From positions 1,638,501 through 1,702,500 of the forward strand of contig NC_009515.1 of the NCBI RefSeq assembly GCF_000016525.1: a stretch of DNA of 64,000 nt, written 5' to 3'. This DNA is from Methanobrevibacter smithii ATCC 35061. Its GTDB lineage: Archaea; Methanobacteriota; Methanobacteria; Methanobacteriales; Methanobacteriaceae. Position 1 is the first letter of the stretch. Each line of letters begins with the position of its first letter. Shown here one piece after another: positions 10,301-36,753 of this stretch. The position numbers and the translations under genes were made by a program. The notes under the pieces are model-generated. The model searched no databases. It saw only the letters and a program-made list of their open reading frames with translations, and was not told the DNA's origin.

Positions 10301-13023
10301 ATACTAAATTTATAGAATCTCGTGGAGCATTCTATTCTTATCAAGCAGCATTAAATATTATTATATCAAATACTGAATTTTTAAAAAATAATTTGGTTGT
10401 AGAAAATAATAGGGGAAAATTAGTTTGTTTAAATGGTTTAATTTCAATTAGGGATATTCTTTCAAAAGGTAGTAGTAATTATAATTATCATTTTAATATT
10501 ACACAAGTGTTATTTGATAATGTGACTTTTGACGGAAATCATAATGTTACTGGTACTGCTAAGCCTAGTGCTCTTTATTTAGTAGGTACAAATACTACTA
10601 TAATTAATTCTAAGTTTACAAATCAAAAAGATATTTCAGCTATAGGTGTATTTAGTAATTATGATACTGGATGTAATGTAACTATTTATAATACTTATTT
10701 TGAAAACAATACAAGAGATATTATTTATGGATATTCATCTCAAGGTGATTATCGTCCAATTATTATATTAAATAATTCAACATTTGTTAATAGTGGAGCA
10801 TTTACATGGCCAGATCCTCGTTATCAAAATGCATGGTGGGTTGTTAACAATACTAAATTTATTAACATGACCAATATGATGATATTTAAAGGGTCAGTAT
10901 CTAGTTCTTATAAGGATAATCCATTACCGTTAGGAGTTAATAATACTGTAACTATTATGAATTCATTATTCTTAAACAATAAAAACGGTGTTGAATTTGG
11001 TAATGGTAATATTTCAGGATCTAGTTTCTATAATACCCCAGTATTTGTATCTTTAACTAGTGGTAGTCAACCTCCTGCATGTATTGTTTACTTAAACAAT
11101 AATTTCTGGAATAGTTCAGTACCTATATATAATGTTACCACTCCTGCTAGAGCTACTGTTTATTGTGATAGTTGGTTAGTTCCAGCATTAGTTACAGACA
11201 ATGCTTCTGGTCCGGTTCAAACTATTAAACTTGTATATTTAGCATTTAATGGAACTGATTATTCTTATTATGATGTTTCTAAAGTACCTATTTTGGATGT
11301 TAATGCTAGTTTAACAGTTTCTAATGGTGTAATTACTCCAAATAAAGGTGTTCTTAACTCTAATGGTTTAACTGCTAATTATACATATAATGGTGTTGGT
11401 AATCAAGTTGTAACTGCAACTTTAAGTGATGGAAATATTTTAAAATTAAATGTAACTTTCTACAGAATTGATACATTTACAAATATGACTATTTCAAATA
11501 ATGTTCCGCAAACTGGAGATTATATTACTGTTAATGTTGTTGTTCGTGATAAGAATGGTAAACTTTTAAATGGTAGTGTGAATGTTTATCTTAATAGTGT
11601 TTTAAAAGGAACTATCAGTTTAATAAATGGTATGGGTTCCTTTGATGTGTTAGCAGAAAAAACTGGTCCTTGTGAAATATTTGTTAATTATACTGGAGAT
11701 TTAGATAATTCTTACTCAAGTAATATGACTATTGTTTCAGTTAAAAATACACAAATGAATGTTTCTGTTTCTGATTCAGATTCTGCAAGTAATGTTACTT
11801 TTACTGTGGACTTTGATCATGTAGCTAATGGTTTTGTATTTGTAACTATTGGTGGTGTAACTTACAATGCTACTGTTTCAGGTAAAGAAGCTAAAGTTAT
11901 TGTACCTCCGTTAGCTGTAGGTAAATATGATGCTATTGTTTCATATAATGGTGTTGTTAATAAAACTGTTGCAGTTAACATATCTCCTGATAGAAATCCA
12001 GTATTAAACATTTCAGATATTGTGATGATTTACAAAGACGGTACCAGAATGGTTGCTGTTTTAACTGATTATTTAGGTAATCCTATTGCTAATGCTATTG
12101 TATACTTTACTATTAATGGTCAAACTTACAATAAAACCACTGATGTTAATGGTACTGCTTCCATGGGATTAAACTTAGCGTCTAATGTGTACAAAGCTAC
12201 TGTTTCATATAATGGTTCAGATAAGTATAATGCAGTTTCTAAAAACATTACTGTAACTATTAATCCGACTATTGTAGCTGATGATTTGGTTAAAATGTAT
12301 CAGAATGCTACCAGATTCTATGCTAAATTCACTGACAGCACTGGAAAAGCAATAGCTAATAAGGAAATCAGATTTAATATTAATGGTGTTTTCTATACTA
12401 AAAAGACTGATAAGGATGGTGTAGCTGATTTAGGTATTATGTTAAGACCTGGAAATTACATTTTAACTGCTTACAACCCTGTAACCGGTGAAGAAAAAGG
12501 ATTTAACATAACCGTAAAATCATTAATCATGCAAAATGACTTAACCAAATATTACTTAAATGCTTCCAGATTTGAAGCAACTGTCTACAATAAAGACGGA
12601 TCTTTAGCAGTAAACAAAGAAGTAACATTTAACATCAACGGTGTGTTCTATCACAAAAAAACAGATGAAAATGGTGTTGCAAGCTTGGGAATTGCTTTAA
12701 GACCTGGAGAATATACTATTACAACAATGTATGATGGTTTGGATATTGGAAACAAAGTCACTGTCATGCCAACTTTAGTAACAAAAGATCTCTCCATGAA
12801 GTACCTTGACGGCAGCAATTTCACTGCTTTAACTTTAGATGGTCAAGGTAAACCATTAGCTAACCAAAACGTATCATTTAACGTAAATGGTGTCTTCTAT
12901 CACAAAGTTACTAATAAAGACGGTATTGCAAGCTTAGGAATCAGATTAATGAGTGGTGAGTATATTATTACTTCCTACTGGAATGATTTCCAAACAGGAA
13001 ACACAATAAAAATCAGTCCTTAA
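7390..13023 (+). CDS. Adhesin-like surface protein, three beta-helix modules and Ig-like repeats
   Basis: About 1877 residues. The reading frame is open from TTG 7357, but AAGGAGG at 7374-7380 stands 9 nt before TTG 7390, which opens directly onto a signal peptide (KNKFAILILLILFMV, cleaved near CVSAED), so I take 7390. Three modules each start with a YVSP/YVSE-x-G-x-D-x-x-(G) header (near residues 40, 405 and 820), followed by beta-helix repeats with GGAIY turns. About 600 C-terminal residues are Ig-like repeats with a recurring FNINGVFY core and a D-K/E-(D/N)-GVA-LGI stretch. There is no membrane anchor. The last 500 bases use many more C-ending codons than the rest, which suggests gene conversion of the 3' end. 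The likely role is cell-surface binding, by family analogy. Confidence 0.85.
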   Translation: MKNKFAILILLILFMVSISCVSAEDNDSSNILTDGASDIYVSPSGNDANVGDMNNPVATINKAINSTATNIHLSEGKFTGTGNNGLTIENKTITIVGAGIDKTIIDLNGTQFMDIKSTSSVVLTNLTIINGYSNYGGAIYNDGNLTIQNCNFKNNSASSGGAIYNNGNLDIYYSTFEDNFVKYSGGAICSYKYATIQDSTFLRNIGTATSSNGGSVYISGNNDKYSILNRNKFKDTQALRNGGALYVNYANVTNCIFENASITSTGSSNGGGAIYGSNFNLKNNTMTNCVSKSGYGNYIWSTSSFNGVVTVLDGKNVDITSSTFTLNATATDDMGHPIHGGYYTFKFNDVFVGGANSVNGFINGTFSKLFDNGKYTVTVSGPLNDNAVVKTATVNVKIDRDYVDYYVSPNGDDNNTGSKDNPFKTINKAITEAFAKNIYVNIHLLEGTYVGAGNLNLTFNNLGYLNIIGVDGKTIINGSNKDWAFNFGSTLNVNIINITFANLYQNNYVGLIKASGNDYTVNIDNCVFEKCNTKYIIYITNGEINNVIMRENIITGCVISGGTSITNLLFENNSGSAYFTNIKKGVYNSTFINNKINQGNDYGLFYISSKNFVSSNNIFENNTIKALYISAYNDINFTSINDTFKNNVAKNGGAVSGGGTFINAKFINNTATQKGGAIYHNAMVLVLKNCIFENNKADDGNDIYGFMSTNVRINPLLNMSNSLKFVSTNSSNVKSELKAIFDLGGIQVSGYNVKFYLNGTYKGSAPLIDNVATLIAIAEDGKYEISGSVDQVNKTNVVTGILNVNANPASVFDVYVSEKGSDESGDGSLAKPFATIKKAFDYGMNQNALSLTIHLIGTLKGEGNVKLDLKPYVDLTIVGENKETSIIDAEKNIYVFDFVPMYDDVKVYLSNLTIKNGVTNKYPSGGVSFTVDTGLVRSTGFYLNVNNCIFMNNTGYGISADKLFSTIVINNTKFIESRGAFYSYQAALNIIISNTEFLKNNLVVENNRGKLVCLNGLISIRDILSKGSSNYNYHFNITQVLFDNVTFDGNHNVTGTAKPSALYLVGTNTTIINSKFTNQKDISAIGVFSNYDTGCNVTIYNTYFENNTRDIIYGYSSQGDYRPIIILNNSTFVNSGAFTWPDPRYQNAWWVVNNTKFINMTNMMIFKGSVSSSYKDNPLPLGVNNTVTIMNSLFLNNKNGVEFGNGNISGSSFYNTPVFVSLTSGSQPPACIVYLNNNFWNSSVPIYNVTTPARATVYCDSWLVPALVTDNASGPVQTIKLVYLAFNGTDYSYYDVSKVPILDVNASLTVSNGVITPNKGVLNSNGLTANYTYNGVGNQVVTATLSDGNILKLNVTFYRIDTFTNMTISNNVPQTGDYITVNVVVRDKNGKLLNGSVNVYLNSVLKGTISLINGMGSFDVLAEKTGPCEIFVNYTGDLDNSYSSNMTIVSVKNTQMNVSVSDSDSASNVTFTVDFDHVANGFVFVTIGGVTYNATVSGKEAKVIVPPLAVGKYDAIVSYNGVVNKTVAVNISPDRNPVLNISDIVMIYKDGTRMVAVLTDYLGNPIANAIVYFTINGQTYNKTTDVNGTASMGLNLASNVYKATVSYNGSDKYNAVSKNITVTINPTIVADDLVKMYQNATRFYAKFTDSTGKAIANKEIRFNINGVFYTKKTDKDGVADLGIMLRPGNYILTAYNPVTGEEKGFNITVKSLIMQNDLTKYYLNASRFEATVYNKDGSLAVNKEVTFNINGVFYHKKTDENGVASLGIALRPGEYTITTMYDGLDIGNKVTVMPTLVTKDLSMKYLDGSNFTALTLDGQGKPLANQNVSFNVNGVFYHKVTNKDGIASLGIRLMSGEYIITSYWNDFQTGNTIKISP

Positions 13024-29731: not shown

Positions 29732-30862
29732 TTATGGTTTCATCATCAAATCCATAATACTGAAAGCTTCATTTTCTTTTTTAATGCCTGGTCCGTTTAA
29801 TCCGCCAAATGCATTTTTTGCAAATTCCTTGTTAAGTCTTTTAGAAACTTCACCAAAAATCATTTTATAAGCCTTACATTGAGGATCAACAGCTTTTGGA
29901 GTTTTACTGGCTACAATAGCATTATATGGACATCCGCCTTCGCAATATTTTACATATCTGCATTTGGCACAGTTTTCATCAACATATTCTCTAAATTCTT
30001 GAAGTTTTGCCCATGCGTCAGACTCTTTTAGCTTATCAAAACTTGGGTTTGCTTTGACATTGCCTAAAATATATTCATCCATTCCTACAAACCTGTAGCA
30101 TGGATAAATTGAACCGTCTGCACCGACAGCTAATGTTGTACCTATACAATCTGCAAACGTACATAATGTTCCCCTTCTTCTGAATGTACTTTTAGCAATG
30201 TGGTCAAGATCCATTACACTGAATTTATCTAAATCATAAAGATACTTGTCTAGCCAGTCTATTAAAAGTTTTCCGTGTTCTTCCTGATCAAGAGCCCATG
30301 GGTCAGCATTGTCTCCACGTAGTGACGGAAGTGCAGCATGTATTTTTAAATTCATACCATGGGATTTGAAAAATTCATATAACTCGTCACTGTAGTCTTT
30401 GGAATATTGAGTTACTGTTAAAACAAAGTTTATGTTTAATCCTTTTTCTTTTGCTCTTTCATATCTGCCAATGGTTTTTTTAAAGTAACCTTCTGCTCTT
30501 TGATAGTCATTAATTTCTTCAGGTCCGTCAATACTGGTACTTACAGCAACATTGTACTTTAAAAATAAATCGATTAGTTCATCTGAAAGTAACCAGATAT
30601 TACTTTGAAGTGAAAAACCTTCTAAATTGTCTATTTTGGATAATTTTTCTAAAGCTTCAGCATAGAAATCATAGCCTGCAAGAAGAGGTTCTCCTCCGTG
30701 GAATGTAAAATGAACTTTATCATCTCTGAAATCTTTTAACCATGTGATAATGTCATCAATTACGCTAATGTCCATCATTTCTTTTGTTGATTCTGAACCC
30801 CAACAGTATTTGCAGTTGCATTGGCAACCTAAAGTGGGAATTATCATTACATGAAAAGTCAT
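29732..30862 (-). CDS. Radical SAM/SPASM peptide-modifying enzyme (methanogen type)
   Basis: A 376-residue radical SAM enzyme. The SAM cluster motif CxxxCxxC is Cys13-Cys17-Cys20 (GCQCNCKYCWG). Next come HGGEPLLAG (SAM-binding GGE) and STSIDGPEEIN. The C-terminal SPASM region has CTFADCIGTTLAVGADGSIYPCYRF and CAKCRYVKYCEGGCPYNA for auxiliary Fe-S clusters. This layout is shared by anaerobic sulfatase-maturing and RiPP-modifying enzymes, and from memory by a methanogen-specific peptide-modifying family (Mhun_1560 type). The start codon lies one base after the stop of the four-cysteine protein upstream, so the two are translationally coupled. That protein is its likely substrate (inference). 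Confidence 0.85.
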   Translation of the reverse strand: MTFHVMIIPTLGCQCNCKYCWGSESTKEMMDISVIDDIITWLKDFRDDKVHFTFHGGEPLLAGYDFYAEALEKLSKIDNLEGFSLQSNIWLLSDELIDLFLKYNVAVSTSIDGPEEINDYQRAEGYFKKTIGRYERAKEKGLNINFVLTVTQYSKDYSDELYEFFKSHGMNLKIHAALPSLRGDNADPWALDQEEHGKLLIDWLDKYLYDLDKFSVMDLDHIAKSTFRRRGTLCTFADCIGTTLAVGADGSIYPCYRFVGMDEYILGNVKANPSFDKLKESDAWAKLQEFREYVDENCAKCRYVKYCEGGCPYNAIVASKTPKAVDPQCKAYKMIFGEVSKRLNKEFAKNAFGGLNGPGIKKENEAFSIMDLMMKP

Positions 30863-30863
30863 T

Positions 30864-31073
30864 TTATCCGTAATATTTATTTAATTCTTTTAAAAGTTCT
30901 TTTTTTTCGTCTTCTTCCATACTATCATTTACAAAGAAAATATAACCGCAATCTTCGCATTTTACAGTGTCTAACTCTGCATGTGCTCTGTGATTGTCTA
31001 ACATTTTTCTGTGTACATGTTTATCTTTGGAACCGCATTTTGGGCATGGAGCTAATATTTCTTCGAGTTTCAT
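30864..31073 (-). CDS. Four-cysteine zinc-ribbon-like small protein, candidate radical SAM substrate
   Basis: A 69-residue protein with CPKCG (Cys10, Cys13) and CEDCG (Cys39, Cys42), the spacing of a zinc ribbon. Between them lies a distinctive HVHRKMLDNHRAHAELDTVK segment. The C-terminus is an acidic/lysine helix. ATG 31073 is chosen because GTGAT stands 4 bases before it; GTG 31082 is the longer option. It is sandwiched between an Fe-S aldo/keto reductase gene (24 bases upstream) and the radical SAM gene (1 base downstream) in one leftward operon. It could be a modified peptide precursor or simply a zinc protein. Confidence 0.75.
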   Translation of the reverse strand: MKLEEILAPCPKCGSKDKHVHRKMLDNHRAHAELDTVKCEDCGYIFFVNDSMEEDEKKELLKELNKYYG

Positions 31074-31097
31074 GTTTATCACTTTTTATTTTATTAT

Positions 31098-32312
31098 TTA
31101 AAAAAATTTCTGATATATTTTCATACCGATACTTTTTACGAATAATACTTTAAATTTAAAGAAATGGCCTTCAAATTCTTTTTTAACTTTATCAAGTTCT
31201 TTTGGAATGTCCAGGTGTTGGGGGCATTTTCTTAAGCACTTTCTGCATCCATTACATAATCCTGCATTTGAACTGTCTATCATAATTCCGCTTACAGTTA
31301 AATAATAATCGATTAAGCTTTGATTTAAAAGGCCTTTTTGATTGAATAAATATTTTTCATTATATATTTTCATGCATTCAGGAATATTCACGCCTCTGGG
31401 GCAGGGCAGGCAGTATCCGCAGCTTGTACAGTTAATTTGAAGCAATTCTTTTAAGGCTCTTTTTGCATAATCGATTGTTTCAAGTTCTTCCAAACTCATG
31501 GAATGGGGTTCAACACTATTTCCAATAGCTATATTTTCATCAATTTGAGCTATGTTATTCATTCCTGAAAATACACAGGTTATTTCAGGATGATTTAAAA
31601 TCCAGGATATGCTCCATTCTGCATTTGTTTTTGAGGGGTCGGCTTTTTTAAATATACTTTCAACTTTATCAGGCATTTTCCCGGCTAAAATTCCACCTTT
31701 TAAAGGTTCCATTACAAAAATTCCCATTCCTTTTGATGCTGCATGGTGAATTCCTTCAATATCTGCCTGAACATTGTTATCAAAGTAATTATATTGGATC
31801 ATCACCATATCCCAGTCATATGCATCAAGTAATAATGGAAATTCTTCAGTAGTGCCGTGGTATGAAAAACCGACATATTTTATTTTTTCCTCTTGTTTTG
31901 CCTTTGATAAGAATTTTAAAACATCTTTTTTAAGCAGTCTGTTCATAGCTTTCAAATCAACATTGTGTAGAAAGTAATAGTCAATACAGTCAATTTGCAG
32001 CCTTTCTAACTGTTCATTTAATATTTTTTCCATATCTTCATACTTTTTTATGTTCATTGCAGGCAATTTTGTAGAAATTTTGACTTTGTTTCTATATTCT
32101 CCTTTTAGAGCCTTTCCAAGGACTTTTTCACTTTCTCCATTATTATAGATAGCTGCAGTATCGATAATGTTTATTCCATTGTCTATTGCATGGTGTATTA
32201 ACTTTTCAGATTCTTTGTAGTTGATTTTACCATTTTTTGAAGGTAGTCTCATAGCTCCAAAGCCTATTGGTGAGAGTTCTTCTCGTGTTTTTTTGACAAT
32301 CCTCTTTTCCAT
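31098..32312 (-). CDS. Aldo/keto reductase with C-terminal 4Fe-4S ferredoxin domain
   Basis: A 404-residue oxidoreductase of the COG1453 type. The barrel shows IGFGAMRLP, NIIDTAAIYNNGESEKVLG (catalytic Asp/Tyr), KVKISTKLP (catalytic Lys) and IDYYFLHNV (the His). The C-terminus has two cysteine groups, CTSCGYCLPCPRGVNIPEC and CNGCRKCLRKCPQHLDIP, which would bind one or two [4Fe-4S] clusters. It is the first gene of the leftward operon with the four-cysteine protein and the radical SAM enzyme. It could supply electrons to the latter (inference). Confidence 0.85.
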   Translation of the reverse strand: MEKRIVKKTREELSPIGFGAMRLPSKNGKINYKESEKLIHHAIDNGINIIDTAAIYNNGESEKVLGKALKGEYRNKVKISTKLPAMNIKKYEDMEKILNEQLERLQIDCIDYYFLHNVDLKAMNRLLKKDVLKFLSKAKQEEKIKYVGFSYHGTTEEFPLLLDAYDWDMVMIQYNYFDNNVQADIEGIHHAASKGMGIFVMEPLKGGILAGKMPDKVESIFKKADPSKTNAEWSISWILNHPEITCVFSGMNNIAQIDENIAIGNSVEPHSMSLEELETIDYAKRALKELLQINCTSCGYCLPCPRGVNIPECMKIYNEKYLFNQKGLLNQSLIDYYLTVSGIMIDSSNAGLCNGCRKCLRKCPQHLDIPKELDKVKKEFEGHFFKFKVLFVKSIGMKIYQKFF

Positions 32313-32626: not shown

Positions 32627-33430
32627 GTGGTTTCAAAAAAGATTATAGCTATTGTTGTTGTAATAGCAGTGTTGGCTGTTGGTGTTGGAGTATGGGCTAA
32701 CGGTTCAGCAAGCACTGATGACAGTTTAAATGGACAGGAAGTAAATTTAGCTGCTGCGGCTAGTTTAAAAAATGTTTTTGATGAAAAATTAATTCCAATG
32801 TTTGAAGAAAAATATCCTGGAGTAAAAGTCACTCCAACTTATGCTTCAAGCGGTGATTTACAAAAACAAATCGAAAATGGTTTGGATGCAGATGTATTTA
32901 TGTCTGCAGGTAATAAACAGATGAATAAATTAGTTAATGAAAGTTTAATTGATAACAGTACTAACATTCAATTTTTAGAAAATAAAGTTGTTTTGATTGT
33001 ACCTAAAGATTCCGACTTAAACATATCTTCATTTGAGGATTTGAAAAATGTAGATGGTAACATTGCTATGGGAGATCCTTCTTCAGTACCTGCAGGTCAA
33101 TATGGTAAGGAAGTATTAACCAATCTTGGTGTATGGGACAGTGTTGAATCCAAATTGTCTTTAGGTACTGACGTAACTGCTGTATTAAATCAGGTAGCTC
33201 AGGGGTCTGCTGAATGCGGTATTGTATATTCTACTGATGCCAAATCTAATGATGATGTTAAAGTAGTTTGTGAAGCTCCAGATGATGCTTTAAAAACTCC
33301 AGTTATTTATCCGGTAGCTGAACTTAAAAACTCAGAGCATCAGGATGCTACTCAAAAGTTCATGGAATTCTTAAAAAGTAAAGAAGCTAAAGATGTATTT
33401 GTTGAATATGGATTTACAATTCATGAATAA
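32627..33430 (+). CDS. modA: Molybdate ABC transporter substrate-binding protein
   Basis: 267 residues starting at GTG with GGTGAT upstream. An N-terminal hydrophobic helix (IIAIVVVIAVLAVGVGVW) anchors or exports it. The mature part shows VNLAAAASLKNVFDE, VTPTYASSGDLQKQIENG, ADVFMSAGNKQM, MGDPSSVPAGQYG and GIVYSTDA, all ModA hallmarks for oxyanion binding. It is the first gene of modABC, which supplies molybdenum for formylmethanofuran and formate dehydrogenases. Confidence 0.93.
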   Translation: MVSKKIIAIVVVIAVLAVGVGVWANGSASTDDSLNGQEVNLAAAASLKNVFDEKLIPMFEEKYPGVKVTPTYASSGDLQKQIENGLDADVFMSAGNKQMNKLVNESLIDNSTNIQFLENKVVLIVPKDSDLNISSFEDLKNVDGNIAMGDPSSVPAGQYGKEVLTNLGVWDSVESKLSLGTDVTAVLNQVAQGSAECGIVYSTDAKSNDDVKVVCEAPDDALKTPVIYPVAELKNSEHQDATQKFMEFLKSKEAKDVFVEYGFTIHE

Positions 33431-33478
33431 ACTTTATAACTTAAAATCCATATGATAATTTAAAGGAGAATTATTAAC

Positions 33479-34153
33479 ATGACTGACTGGACTCCAATTT
33501 TTATTTCAATGAAAACAGCAAGTTTATCAATTTTTATAACCTTTTTTTTAGGATTAATAGTTGCCTGGGGCATTGTTAAACTTAAAAATGATTCAGTAAA
33601 AATTGTACTTGACGGTATTTTTACACTTCCAATTGTATTGCCTCCTACTGTTGTAGGATTCTTTTTATTGTATATTTTTGGTGTTAGGGGTCCGATAGGT
33701 AAGTTTTTTGTAGACTTTTTTTCTGTGAAAATAGCATTTTCATGGTCTGCAACAGTTATCGCTGCAGTGGTCATGTCTTTTCCTTTAATGTATCGTTCTG
33801 CCAGAGGTGCATTTGAACAGGTAGATTCTAATTTATTGGATGCTGGCCGTACATTGGGGATGTCTGAGTTCAAAATTTTCTGGAAAGTTTTGCTTGCAAA
33901 TGCACTTCCAGGAATTATTAGTGGGGGAATACTTGCCTATGCCAGAGGTTTAGGTGAGTTTGGTGCTACGGCAATGATTGCAGGAAATATTGCAGGACAA
34001 ACTAGAACTCTTCCAATGGCGGTTTATTCTGAAGTAGCTGCCGGTAATATGGGAGATGCTTTTAATTATGTAATATTCATTGTTATTATATCATTTATAG
34101 CTATTTTTATTATGGATTATGTTTCAATACGTAAGGAAAGGCAGTGGAAATAA
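33479..34153 (+). CDS. modB: Molybdate ABC transporter permease
   Basis: A 224-residue integral membrane protein with five or six helices. The EAA loop is seen at DAGRTLGMSEFKIFWKVLLANALPGI, followed by GILAYARGLGEFGATAMIAGN and TRTLPMAVY, typical of ModB. ATG follows GGAG with normal spacing. It lies between modA and modC on one transcript. Confidence 0.93.
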   Translation: MTDWTPIFISMKTASLSIFITFFLGLIVAWGIVKLKNDSVKIVLDGIFTLPIVLPPTVVGFFLLYIFGVRGPIGKFFVDFFSVKIAFSWSATVIAAVVMSFPLMYRSARGAFEQVDSNLLDAGRTLGMSEFKIFWKVLLANALPGIISGGILAYARGLGEFGATAMIAGNIAGQTRTLPMAVYSEVAAGNMGDAFNYVIFIVIISFIAIFIMDYVSIRKERQWK

Positions 34154-34168
34154 TTTGGGGAATATGTT

Positions 34169-35152
34169 ATGAGTAATGAATTGTTAAAAGTAAATATTCA
34201 AAAGAAACTTAAAGAATTTGACTTAAATGTGGATTTTGAATTAAAAAAAGGATGTTTAGGTATTTTAGGTCCTTCAGGTTGTGGTAAAAGTATGACTTTA
34301 AAATCTGTTGCAGGTATTGTAAATCCAGATAATGGTGTTATAAGTTTAACTACAAATGATGAAACTGTTTATTATGATTCTAATGAAAAAATTAATTTAA
34401 AGCCCCAAAAAAGAAATGTAGGATACTTATTTCAAAATTATGCATTATTTCCGAATATGACTGTAGAGGAAAATGTTGCTATTGGTTTACCTAAAGATTA
34501 TGATGAAAAAAGGTTAACTGATATGATTAAACGCTTTCGTTTAGAAGGTTTGGAAAAGAGATATCCTAGAGAGTTATCTGGAGGTCAGCAGCAAAGAGTA
34601 GCTTTGGCCCGTATATTGGCTTACAGTCCGGATGTTATACTGTTGGATGAACCGTTTAGTGCAATGGATACATTTCTAAAAGAACAGTTACGTATTGAAC
34701 TTAGTAATGTACTGAAAGATTTTGACGGATTTTCTATTCTTGTTACCCATAATCGTGATGAAGTATTTCAGTTTTGCGATGAGCTTTTAATATTGGACAA
34801 GGGTAAAATTATTGCAAAAGGAACTACTCACGATGTGTTTGAGAATCCAAAAAAAGTTCAGGTTGCTAGACTTACAGGATGTAAAAATATTTCTAAAGTT
34901 GAAATAATAGATGATTATCATCTTAAATCATTAGAATGGGGAATTACATTTGAAGTAGCTGAAAAAATTTCACAGGATATTACTCATATTGGAATAAGGG
35001 CACATGATTTTTTGCCTGCTGAAAAAGATGATATTAATTCATTTGACACTATAAACGCAACAAAATTGGAAATACCTTTTGAATGGCAAATAACGTTGGC
35101 AAATGGATTATGGTGGAAATTAGATAAAAAATACATGATCATGAATTTATAA
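34169..35152 (+). CDS. modC: Molybdate ABC transporter ATPase, C-terminus altered by a frameshift
   Basis: 327 residues as read. Walker A GPSGCGKS (about 30-37), Q loop LFQNYALFPNMT, signature LSGGQQQRVALARIL, Walker B VILLDEPFSAMD and switch VTHNRD are all present, then part of the MopI/TOBE domain. At an A6 run (35126-35131) the frame changes to YMIMNL and stops. One added A would restore an IHDHEFIIPDYLKVDPKNII tail ending at TAA 35203-35205, which fits the family better. The ATPase core is intact, so loss of about 24 terminal residues may or may not matter. It could be a sequence error. Confidence 0.88.
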   Translation: MSNELLKVNIQKKLKEFDLNVDFELKKGCLGILGPSGCGKSMTLKSVAGIVNPDNGVISLTTNDETVYYDSNEKINLKPQKRNVGYLFQNYALFPNMTVEENVAIGLPKDYDEKRLTDMIKRFRLEGLEKRYPRELSGGQQQRVALARILAYSPDVILLDEPFSAMDTFLKEQLRIELSNVLKDFDGFSILVTHNRDEVFQFCDELLILDKGKIIAKGTTHDVFENPKKVQVARLTGCKNISKVEIIDDYHLKSLEWGITFEVAEKISQDITHIGIRAHDFLPAEKDDINSFDTINATKLEIPFEWQITLANGLWWKLDKKYMIMNL

Positions 35153-35449: not shown

Positions 35450-36753
35450 ATGAAACTGACAATTATTGGAACCGGCTATGTAGGTCTTGTTACCGGAACT
35501 TGTTTTGCAGAAATGGGAAATAAAGTTTACTGTGTTGATAATGACTTGGAAAAAATAGCTAATTTAAAAAATAATATCTTACCTATTTATGAACCTAATT
35601 TGGCATCATTAGTTAAATCCAATCAAAAAAAGGGAGATTTAATTTTTACCAGTGATTTAAAAGAGGCTTTAGACAATTCCAATATTATTTTCATAGCTGT
35701 TGGAACTCCTGAACATGAGGACGGTAGCGTTAATTTAGATTATGTTTATGATGTAGCTTCAGAAATAGCTGATGTTATTAGCCAGGATTCATTAATTGTC
35801 ATTAAATCTACTGTTCCTGTCGGCACTGCTTTTAAGGTTAAGAAAGTAATAGAATCTAATTTAAATAAAGATATTAAAATTGATATAGCCAGCAATCCTG
35901 AATTTTTAAAGGAAGGGGTAGCTATTGCTGATTGTATGCATCCTGACCGTGTAATTATTGGTGCACAAAATGATGAAGTTTTTGAGACTTTAAAAGAGTT
36001 ATACTCATCATTTATTGTTAATAGTGATAGATTTGTTTTGATGGATGTTAAAAGTGCTGAAATGAGCAAATATGTTGCCAATGCTCTGCTTGCTACTAAA
36101 ATATCTTTCATGAATGAAATAGCCAATATATGTGAGAAAGTTGGTGCAAATGTTAAAAATGTTCGTTTAGGTATTGGCAGTGATAAAAGAATAGGTTATG
36201 ATTTTATTTATGCTGGCTGCGGTTATGGTGGAAGCTGTTTTCCTAAAGATGTAAAAGGGCTGATTAATACTGCCCTTGATAATGTTATGAACCTAAGATT
36301 TTGGCTAATGTTGATGATGTCAATGAAAATCAAAAGCTTGTTTTAGTAAACAAGATTGTTGATAGGTTTGGTGAGGATTTATCAGGTCTAACTTTCGGTA
36401 TTTGGGGTCTTTCTTTTAAACCTCAAACTGATGATGTAAGGTGTGCACCTTCTTTAATAATAGCTTCTGAAATTATTAAAAGGGGTGGAAAAATAAAAGC
36501 ATATGATCCAAAAGCCATTGATAATTTCAGACAGAACTTTGATTCTAAAAATATTGATTATAAAAAATCCAAATATGATGTTTTAGATGATAGTGACTGT
36601 CTTGTTTTAATTACTGAATGGAAAGAATTCAGAGCTCTTGATTTGGATGAATTAGCTAAAAGATTAAACCAGAAGATTATTTTTGACGGCAGGAATATTT
36701 ATTCACCTAAAATTAGAGAAGCAGGTTTTGAGCTATATCAAATAGGTTGCTAA
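35450..36753 (+). pseudogene. ugd: UDP-glucose 6-dehydrogenase, single frameshift
   Basis: The N-terminal frame (from 35450) has the Rossmann motif IIGTGYVGLVTGTCFAEMG, VGTPEHEDG, KSTVPVGTA, NPEFLKEG, and the catalytic Cys in GCGYGGSCFPKDVKGL. It breaks after TALDN. The remaining 150 residues (ANVDDVNENQKLVLVNKI to the C-terminus, with WGLSFKPQTDDVR) lie in another frame. Restoring one G at 36284 joins them as DN-GYEPKILANVDDVN, as expected for the family. The enzyme oxidises UDP-glucose to UDP-glucuronate, with GalU as supplier. Everything else is intact, so this is either a very recent mutation or a sequence error. Confidence 0.85.

Follow-up and report, generated by a model that had tools for sequence, protein, structure and literature searches.

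A SPASM-type radical SAM enzyme of Methanobrevibacter smithii as a candidate for making the didehydroaspartate of methyl-coenzyme M reductase

What does a radical SAM (S-adenosylmethionine) enzyme act upon when its gene lies directly beside that of a very small four-cysteine protein? The question is raised by a 64,000-nucleotide stretch (the window) of the 1,853,160-base genome of Methanobrevibacter smithii, in which three leftward open reading frames (ORFs) at 32312-31098 (404 residues), 31073-30864 (69 residues) and 30862-29732 (376 residues) encode an aldo/keto reductase, the four-cysteine protein and a radical SAM/SPASM enzyme. The ORFs are separated by 24 bases and then by 1 base, as had already been described, and the 69-residue ORF is counted from its ATG, the mechanical ORF start being a GTG at 31082. 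The original prediction for this locus was that the enzyme belongs to a methanogen family with a small partner, that it modifies the small protein and that the reductase may supply electrons; the family and the coupling to the partner have stood, and the proposed substrate and electron source have found no support. We consider it likely that the enzyme, a member of the NCBIfam family TIGR04083, is a SPASM dehydrogenase resembling the anaerobic sulfatase-maturating enzymes (anSMEs) which acts in trans on McrA of methyl-coenzyme M reductase (MCR), converting an active-site aspartate to didehydroaspartate, and that the small protein is an accessory used in Methanobacteria. The radical SAM gene found here beside that of a small zinc ribbon is probably not the gene of a peptide-product maker.

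The family membership and fold class of the enzyme are clear. Encoded on the minus strand at 29732..30862, it matches the TIGR04083 profile at 629 bits (cut-off 300) over residues 4-375 and profile positions 1-376, making it a full member, and it scores 58.7 bits against PF04055 and 31.5 bits against PF13186, as a radical SAM/SPASM protein should. The motifs originally read from the sequence are all in place: the CxxxCxxC cluster motif (residues 13-20; 30803..30826, minus strand) consists of C13, C17 and C20, invariant in alignments of 18 and of 29 relatives, and the SPASM region (residues 234-329; 29876..30163, minus strand) carries eight cysteines, C234, C239, C255, C298, C301, C307, C311 and C329, which are invariant in the 29. 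Following a variable linker that is modelled with low confidence comes a C-terminal tail that the family conserves, (I/V)M..M.K, here IMDLMMK (residues 369-375; 29738..29758, minus strand), which is retained in both alignments and forms a short helix in the structure model. This model has a mean pLDDT of 84.7, and its nearest fold is that of anSME (Z 34.6, root-mean-square deviation 2.9 Å, 345 aligned residues); the nearest sequence in the Protein Data Bank is likewise anSMEcpe (4k36-4k39, 161 bits). AnSMEs are SPASM dehydrogenases that perform a two-electron oxidation of one residue in a large protein, and TIGR04083 is like anSMEcpe in fold, in sequence and in its full set of SPASM cysteines. 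It differs in its proposed target and in the residue after the third SPASM cysteine, which in anSME is a catalytic aspartate with an acid-base role (PCD) and in TIGR04083 is a tyrosine (PCYRF; Tyr256) that is invariant in the 18 and the 29 relatives. Formylglycine chemistry was rejected for TIGR04083 on account of this replacement, and the enzyme does not reach the cut-off of the anSME family TIGR03942 (174.9 bits against 349). The invariant tyrosine would fit a reaction in which no alcohol or thiol needs to be deprotonated.

NCBIfam lists the enzyme family as rSAM_pep_methan (TIGR04083) and its partner as methano_modCys (TIGR04165), both as 'hypoth_equivalog' entries that are tightly coupled in Methanobacteria, and both proteins of the window are full members above the cut-offs. 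The catalogue takes TIGR04083 to be a peptide modifier working with a small cysteine-rich peptide, whereas we find the enzyme widespread without that peptide and, in several lineages, behind mcrA. A scan of named genomes returned, as its best 80 loci, mostly Methanosarcinia, ANME-2 (a group of anaerobic methanotrophic archaea, ANME) and Methanomicrobia; in most of them the enzyme is 66-75% identical to the query, and in only one, a Methanobacteriaceae record, does the sequence pattern of the small protein lie beside it. Two further pattern matches (L143 and L148) were judged unrelated to the small protein. Of 237 genomes of one Halobacteriota class 153 carry the enzyme, as do 35 of 78 mcrA-positive genomes selected from outside that class. 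In Methanosarcina acetivorans TIGR04083 scores above its cut-off and TIGR04165 has no match genome-wide, the search in other Halobacteriota having covered the DNA beside the enzyme. Nor does any other small neighbour take its place in Halobacteriota, the commonest neighbour family occurring in 18 of the 80 loci. A maturase of ribosomally synthesised and post-translationally modified peptides (RiPPs) should be accompanied by its precursor throughout its range, and the small protein does not accompany this one in much of its range. Since the enzyme is so widespread without it, its general substrate should be something else.

MCR makes nearly all biological methane, and didehydroaspartate is already known in its active site. 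Table 1 of PMC9081873 lists this residue as present in M. marburgensis, M. barkeri and M. acetivorans and as absent from M. kandleri, M. formicicus, M. wolfeii, M. thermolithotrophicus, M. shengliensis, ANME-1 and Ca. Ethanoperedens, and PMC12413448 reports it in ANME-2c and ANME-2d; the enzyme that makes it is stated to be unknown in PMC7581889 and PMC8070964. The distribution of TIGR04083 follows this record. It is intact in the genome whose McrA matches that of M. marburgensis (G143; 547/547 residues to 1mro/5a0y), and present in M. acetivorans, which served as a control genome, in 30/30 genomes of a Methanosarcina-like genus (g157), in 17 named Methanosarcina records among the named loci and in named ANME-2c and Methanoperedens records. 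It was found in 0/36 genomes of Methanococci, in 0/22 genomes of family f84, which is ANME-1 judging from the McrA of one member (1105 bits to 3sqg, the next match scoring 633), and not in G303, whose McrA agrees with the Ca. Ethanoperedens structure 7b1s at all 485 of the 485 residues compared. M. wolfeii is closely related to M. marburgensis and differs from it in didehydroaspartate. In genome G150, whose McrA equals the M. wolfeii structure 5a8k residue for residue (547/547; the McrA of six other Methanothermobacter genomes is 5 to 11 residues off it), the codon for a tyrosine that is invariant in the 18 and 29 relatives (Tyr332; 29867..29869 on the minus strand of the window) has changed from TAC to TAG, a stop that, in the model, removes the C-terminal helix and the conserved tail. 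The presence of the enzyme thus agrees with that of didehydroaspartate in 10 of 12 typed MCR sources, these being all ten that were judged: four directly, four at the level of genus, class or family and two by other records of the clade.

A phyletic range that fits one McrA modification is what would be expected of an MCR-modifying enzyme, and among the modifications listed didehydroaspartate alone shows the pattern of TIGR04083. According to PMC9081873, N1-methyl-histidine is universal in McrA, hydroxy-tryptophan occurs in M. formicicus and ANME-2 and not in M. marburgensis, and S-methyl-cysteine occurs in M. wolfeii and Ca. Ethanoperedens. The target sequence LGF(Y/F)G-DLQDQ (the stretch around the target aspartate reads RLGFYGYDLQDQCGA) is shared by the McrA sequences read, whether or not the genome has the enzyme, so it is the enzyme and not the site that would decide whether the modification is made. 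We found no paper in the open-licence literature that names the TIGR04083 enzyme or its family, or that gives the target or function proposed for it.

A genetic link to mcr, which would also be expected of an MCR-modifying enzyme, was found too. It was counted in 67 Halobacteriota genomes (28 genera) with listed coordinates for both genes, drawn from a source list that includes 221 mcrA-positive genomes. The enzyme gene lies within 1.5 kb of mcrA in 15 of the 67, in every case downstream and on the same strand, and in none is it that close in another orientation; the linked genomes fall in four genera of four families (ten in f30.g155, three in f90.g200 and one each in f99.g220 and f82.g172), and a simple genus-level binomial gives p ~3e-9. 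Reading the DNA confirmed the gene order mcrBDCGA followed by TIGR04083. Besides these fifteen, a named ANME-2 contig has the enzyme 171 bp behind mcrA, and on four named contigs mcrA precedes the enzyme on the same strand at a distance of about 5 kb. In an enzyme gene tree, built without L242, the mcrA-linked enzymes are scattered through separate parts among unlinked ones. Within genus g155, G411 and G432 have an mcr operon without the enzyme gene, and in G411 mcrA is directly followed by the gene that comes after the enzyme in its relatives. In G426 the enzyme gene is followed by a surplus 3' part of mcrA (L227, 9800-10201, plus strand), such as the insertion of an mcrA-enzyme cassette would produce. 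We think it fairly likely that TIGR04083 is an MCR didehydroaspartate synthase which some lineages carry as an mcrA-linked cassette open to gain and loss, with a dedicated zinc-ribbon helper in Methanobacteria.

This linkage points to MCR only, and the sampled taxa are few and related. It may accordingly be asked whether the enzyme acts on MCR or its maturation by making some other change, perhaps one that mass spectrometry has yet to reveal, so that the agreement with didehydroaspartate would be a phylogenetic coincidence. We consider this unlikely, given that no other listed McrA modification matches the pattern and that the arginine, glutamine, glycine and cysteine modifications already have enzymes of their own. 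Those enzymes, Mmp10/MamA (arginine), MgmA (glutamine), McmA (cysteine) and YcaO-TfuA (thioglycine), each make one variable McrA modification in trans, just as is proposed here for TIGR04083; Mmp10 and MgmA are radical SAM, cobalamin-dependent methylases, whereas TIGR04083, with its SPASM region and anSME-like character, would be a dehydrogenase. As a didehydroaspartate synthase, it would act on the active-site aspartate that is Asp450 in M. marburgensis and Asp470 in M. acetivorans numbering. Its SAM-bound 4Fe-4S cluster would generate a 5'-deoxyadenosyl radical, which would abstract a hydrogen from the aspartate side chain; the resulting substrate radical would then pass one electron to the auxiliary clusters and lose a proton, giving a C=C bond. 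In sum, the C-alpha/C-beta bond of the aspartate would lose two hydrogens.

We were also interested in what remains for the small protein. Encoded at 30864..31073 (minus strand), it has the CPKCG and CEDCG motifs and the segment HVHRKMLDNHRAHAE that had been described, and it passes both TIGR04165 (92.2 bits, cut-off 60; profile positions 1-50) and the Lar-type zinc ribbon PF14354 (35.7 bits, cut-off 28.6). It therefore resembles the Lar/CPxCG zinc ribbons and, unlike them, also belongs to a family restricted to Methanobacteria; its structure model, made with two sequences, is of low confidence (mean pLDDT 69). In 151 genomes of the Methanobacteria phylum, calling the enzyme present at E <=1e-60 and the small protein at the TIGR04165 cut-off, we found the enzyme in 134 and the small protein in 135. 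The two occur together in 133; 2 genomes have just the small protein and 1 (G010) just the enzyme, and 15 count as having neither, one of which (G056) holds an enzyme fragment (9.2e-51) interrupted by a contig end. A wide occurrence of the small protein without the enzyme would have spoken against the pairing, and it was seen only in those two genomes, which are 63-64% complete. Adjacency, which the original prediction had suggested checking, is common as well: of the 133 genomes with both, 100 have the small gene on the enzyme's strand no more than 0.5 kb upstream of it, 6 have it within 6 kb, 4 far away and 23 on another contig. The small gene is elsewhere in the genome in 20/20 members of genus g12 and on another contig in 5/5 members of genus g13, and that both genes are nonetheless retained shows the coupling to be real and independent of adjacency. 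Among 145 further archaeal genomes outside Methanobacteria none reaches the TIGR04165 cut-off, and none of these 145 has the enzyme either.

Such coupling, with its near-complete joint loss and the name methano_modCys, is what one would expect if the 69-residue protein were itself the substrate, whether RiPP-like or as a modified small protein. We nevertheless think this improbable, given the closely similar enzymes at named loci where the small protein is not adjacent, its absence from the M. acetivorans genome, the lineages with the enzyme behind mcrA, the separated genes of g12 and g13 and the four cysteines, which match those of zinc ribbons. A combined scheme, in which the small zinc ribbon of Methanobacteria is a second substrate or needs modification to aid MCR maturation, would account both for the coupling in this group and for the wider range of the enzyme; we regard it as very improbable, the small protein of G150 being intact while its enzyme is broken. 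Confined as it is to Methanobacteria among the genomes searched, the TIGR04165 protein, including that of this Methanobrevibacter, would thus be an accessory of the MCR-modifying enzyme (an adaptor, presenter or regulator) and not its general or main substrate.

Other proteins related to it were also encountered. Weaker TIGR04165 matches in the present genome (36 and 23 bits) were considered as paralogues, and the ORFs that hold them were taken for zinc-ribbon proteins of other kinds. A second TIGR04165-like protein, in which additional residues are inserted between the two CxxC motifs, occurs in Methanothermobacter and other genomes of the order (for example L075, about 11872-12096, plus strand), away from TIGR04083-family enzymes except in L075, where one is within a few kb. 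In genus g12 (L073, 5024-6875; L085, 3477-5334) the small protein is found with a SWIM-type protein, a two-cluster ferredoxin and an apparent geranylgeranyl reductase, the radical SAM enzyme not being there.

The assignment to didehydroaspartate, though strong as a prediction from genomes, falls short of a demonstration, and several points weigh against it. M. kandleri and M. shengliensis, both without the modification, lie outside the ten judged sources; the verdicts on M. barkeri, M. formicicus, M. thermolithotrophicus and ANME-1 come from their genus, class or family, and those on ANME-2c and ANME-2d from other records of the clade. Only a minority of the genomes, and none of the Methanobacteria seen, show the linkage to mcrA, and it indicates MCR rather than which residue is changed. 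Since the catalytic aspartate of anSME is a tyrosine in TIGR04083, the chemistry cannot be that of anSME. The coupling of TIGR04083 and TIGR04165 in Methanobacteria is tight, yet action on MCR leaves it unexplained. The M. wolfeii stop is a single base in one genome and may be a sequencing or assembly error, and the ratio of nonsynonymous to synonymous substitution rates (dN/dS; 0.098 with G150 against 0.070 for an intact pair) gives no clear sign of decay. Finally, a one-base deletion relative to G149 puts the enzyme gene of G148 (L167, C1:71711-72825, minus strand), a genome thought to be that of M. thermautotrophicus Delta-H, out of frame; the prediction is that either the sequence is in error or the MCR of this organism lacks the modification.

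The third gene of the locus, at 31098..32312 (minus strand), encodes the 404-residue protein, an aldo/keto reductase (PF00248, 156 bits) with a C-terminal 4Fe-4S dicluster domain (PF13187, Fer4_9, 35.6 bits). Only the loci of genus g1 have a near homologue, 62-100% identical over most of its length, next to the pair, and in G010 a 42% homologue adjoins the enzyme; elsewhere none was seen in the flanking DNA covered, which at many loci extends no further than about 1.5 kb. We rejected the reductase as the electron donor, its place beside the pair being mostly a feature of one genus. Divergent beside the operon, on the plus strand at 32627-35152, is a molybdate ATP-binding cassette transporter set consisting of ModA (TIGR01256) and, by eye, a permease and an ATPase. 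Further on, at 35450-36753 (plus strand), two overlapping ORFs of 298 and 150 residues resemble one UDP-sugar dehydrogenase gene broken by a frameshift.

The families TIGR04083 and TIGR04165 were already catalogued; the target and function are what we propose. If this proposal is true, a SPASM radical SAM dehydrogenase makes a C=C bond within the active site of the chief enzyme of methane formation, and the catalogue entry for a peptide-modifying enzyme with a small peptide target would be corrected. The difference between M. marburgensis and M. wolfeii would be explained, and a part missing from attempts at active MCR in foreign hosts would be supplied. The role of didehydroaspartate would become testable through a named gene in a genetically tractable methanogen, and its presence would be predictable from genomes, including that of the gut methanogen M. 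smithii.

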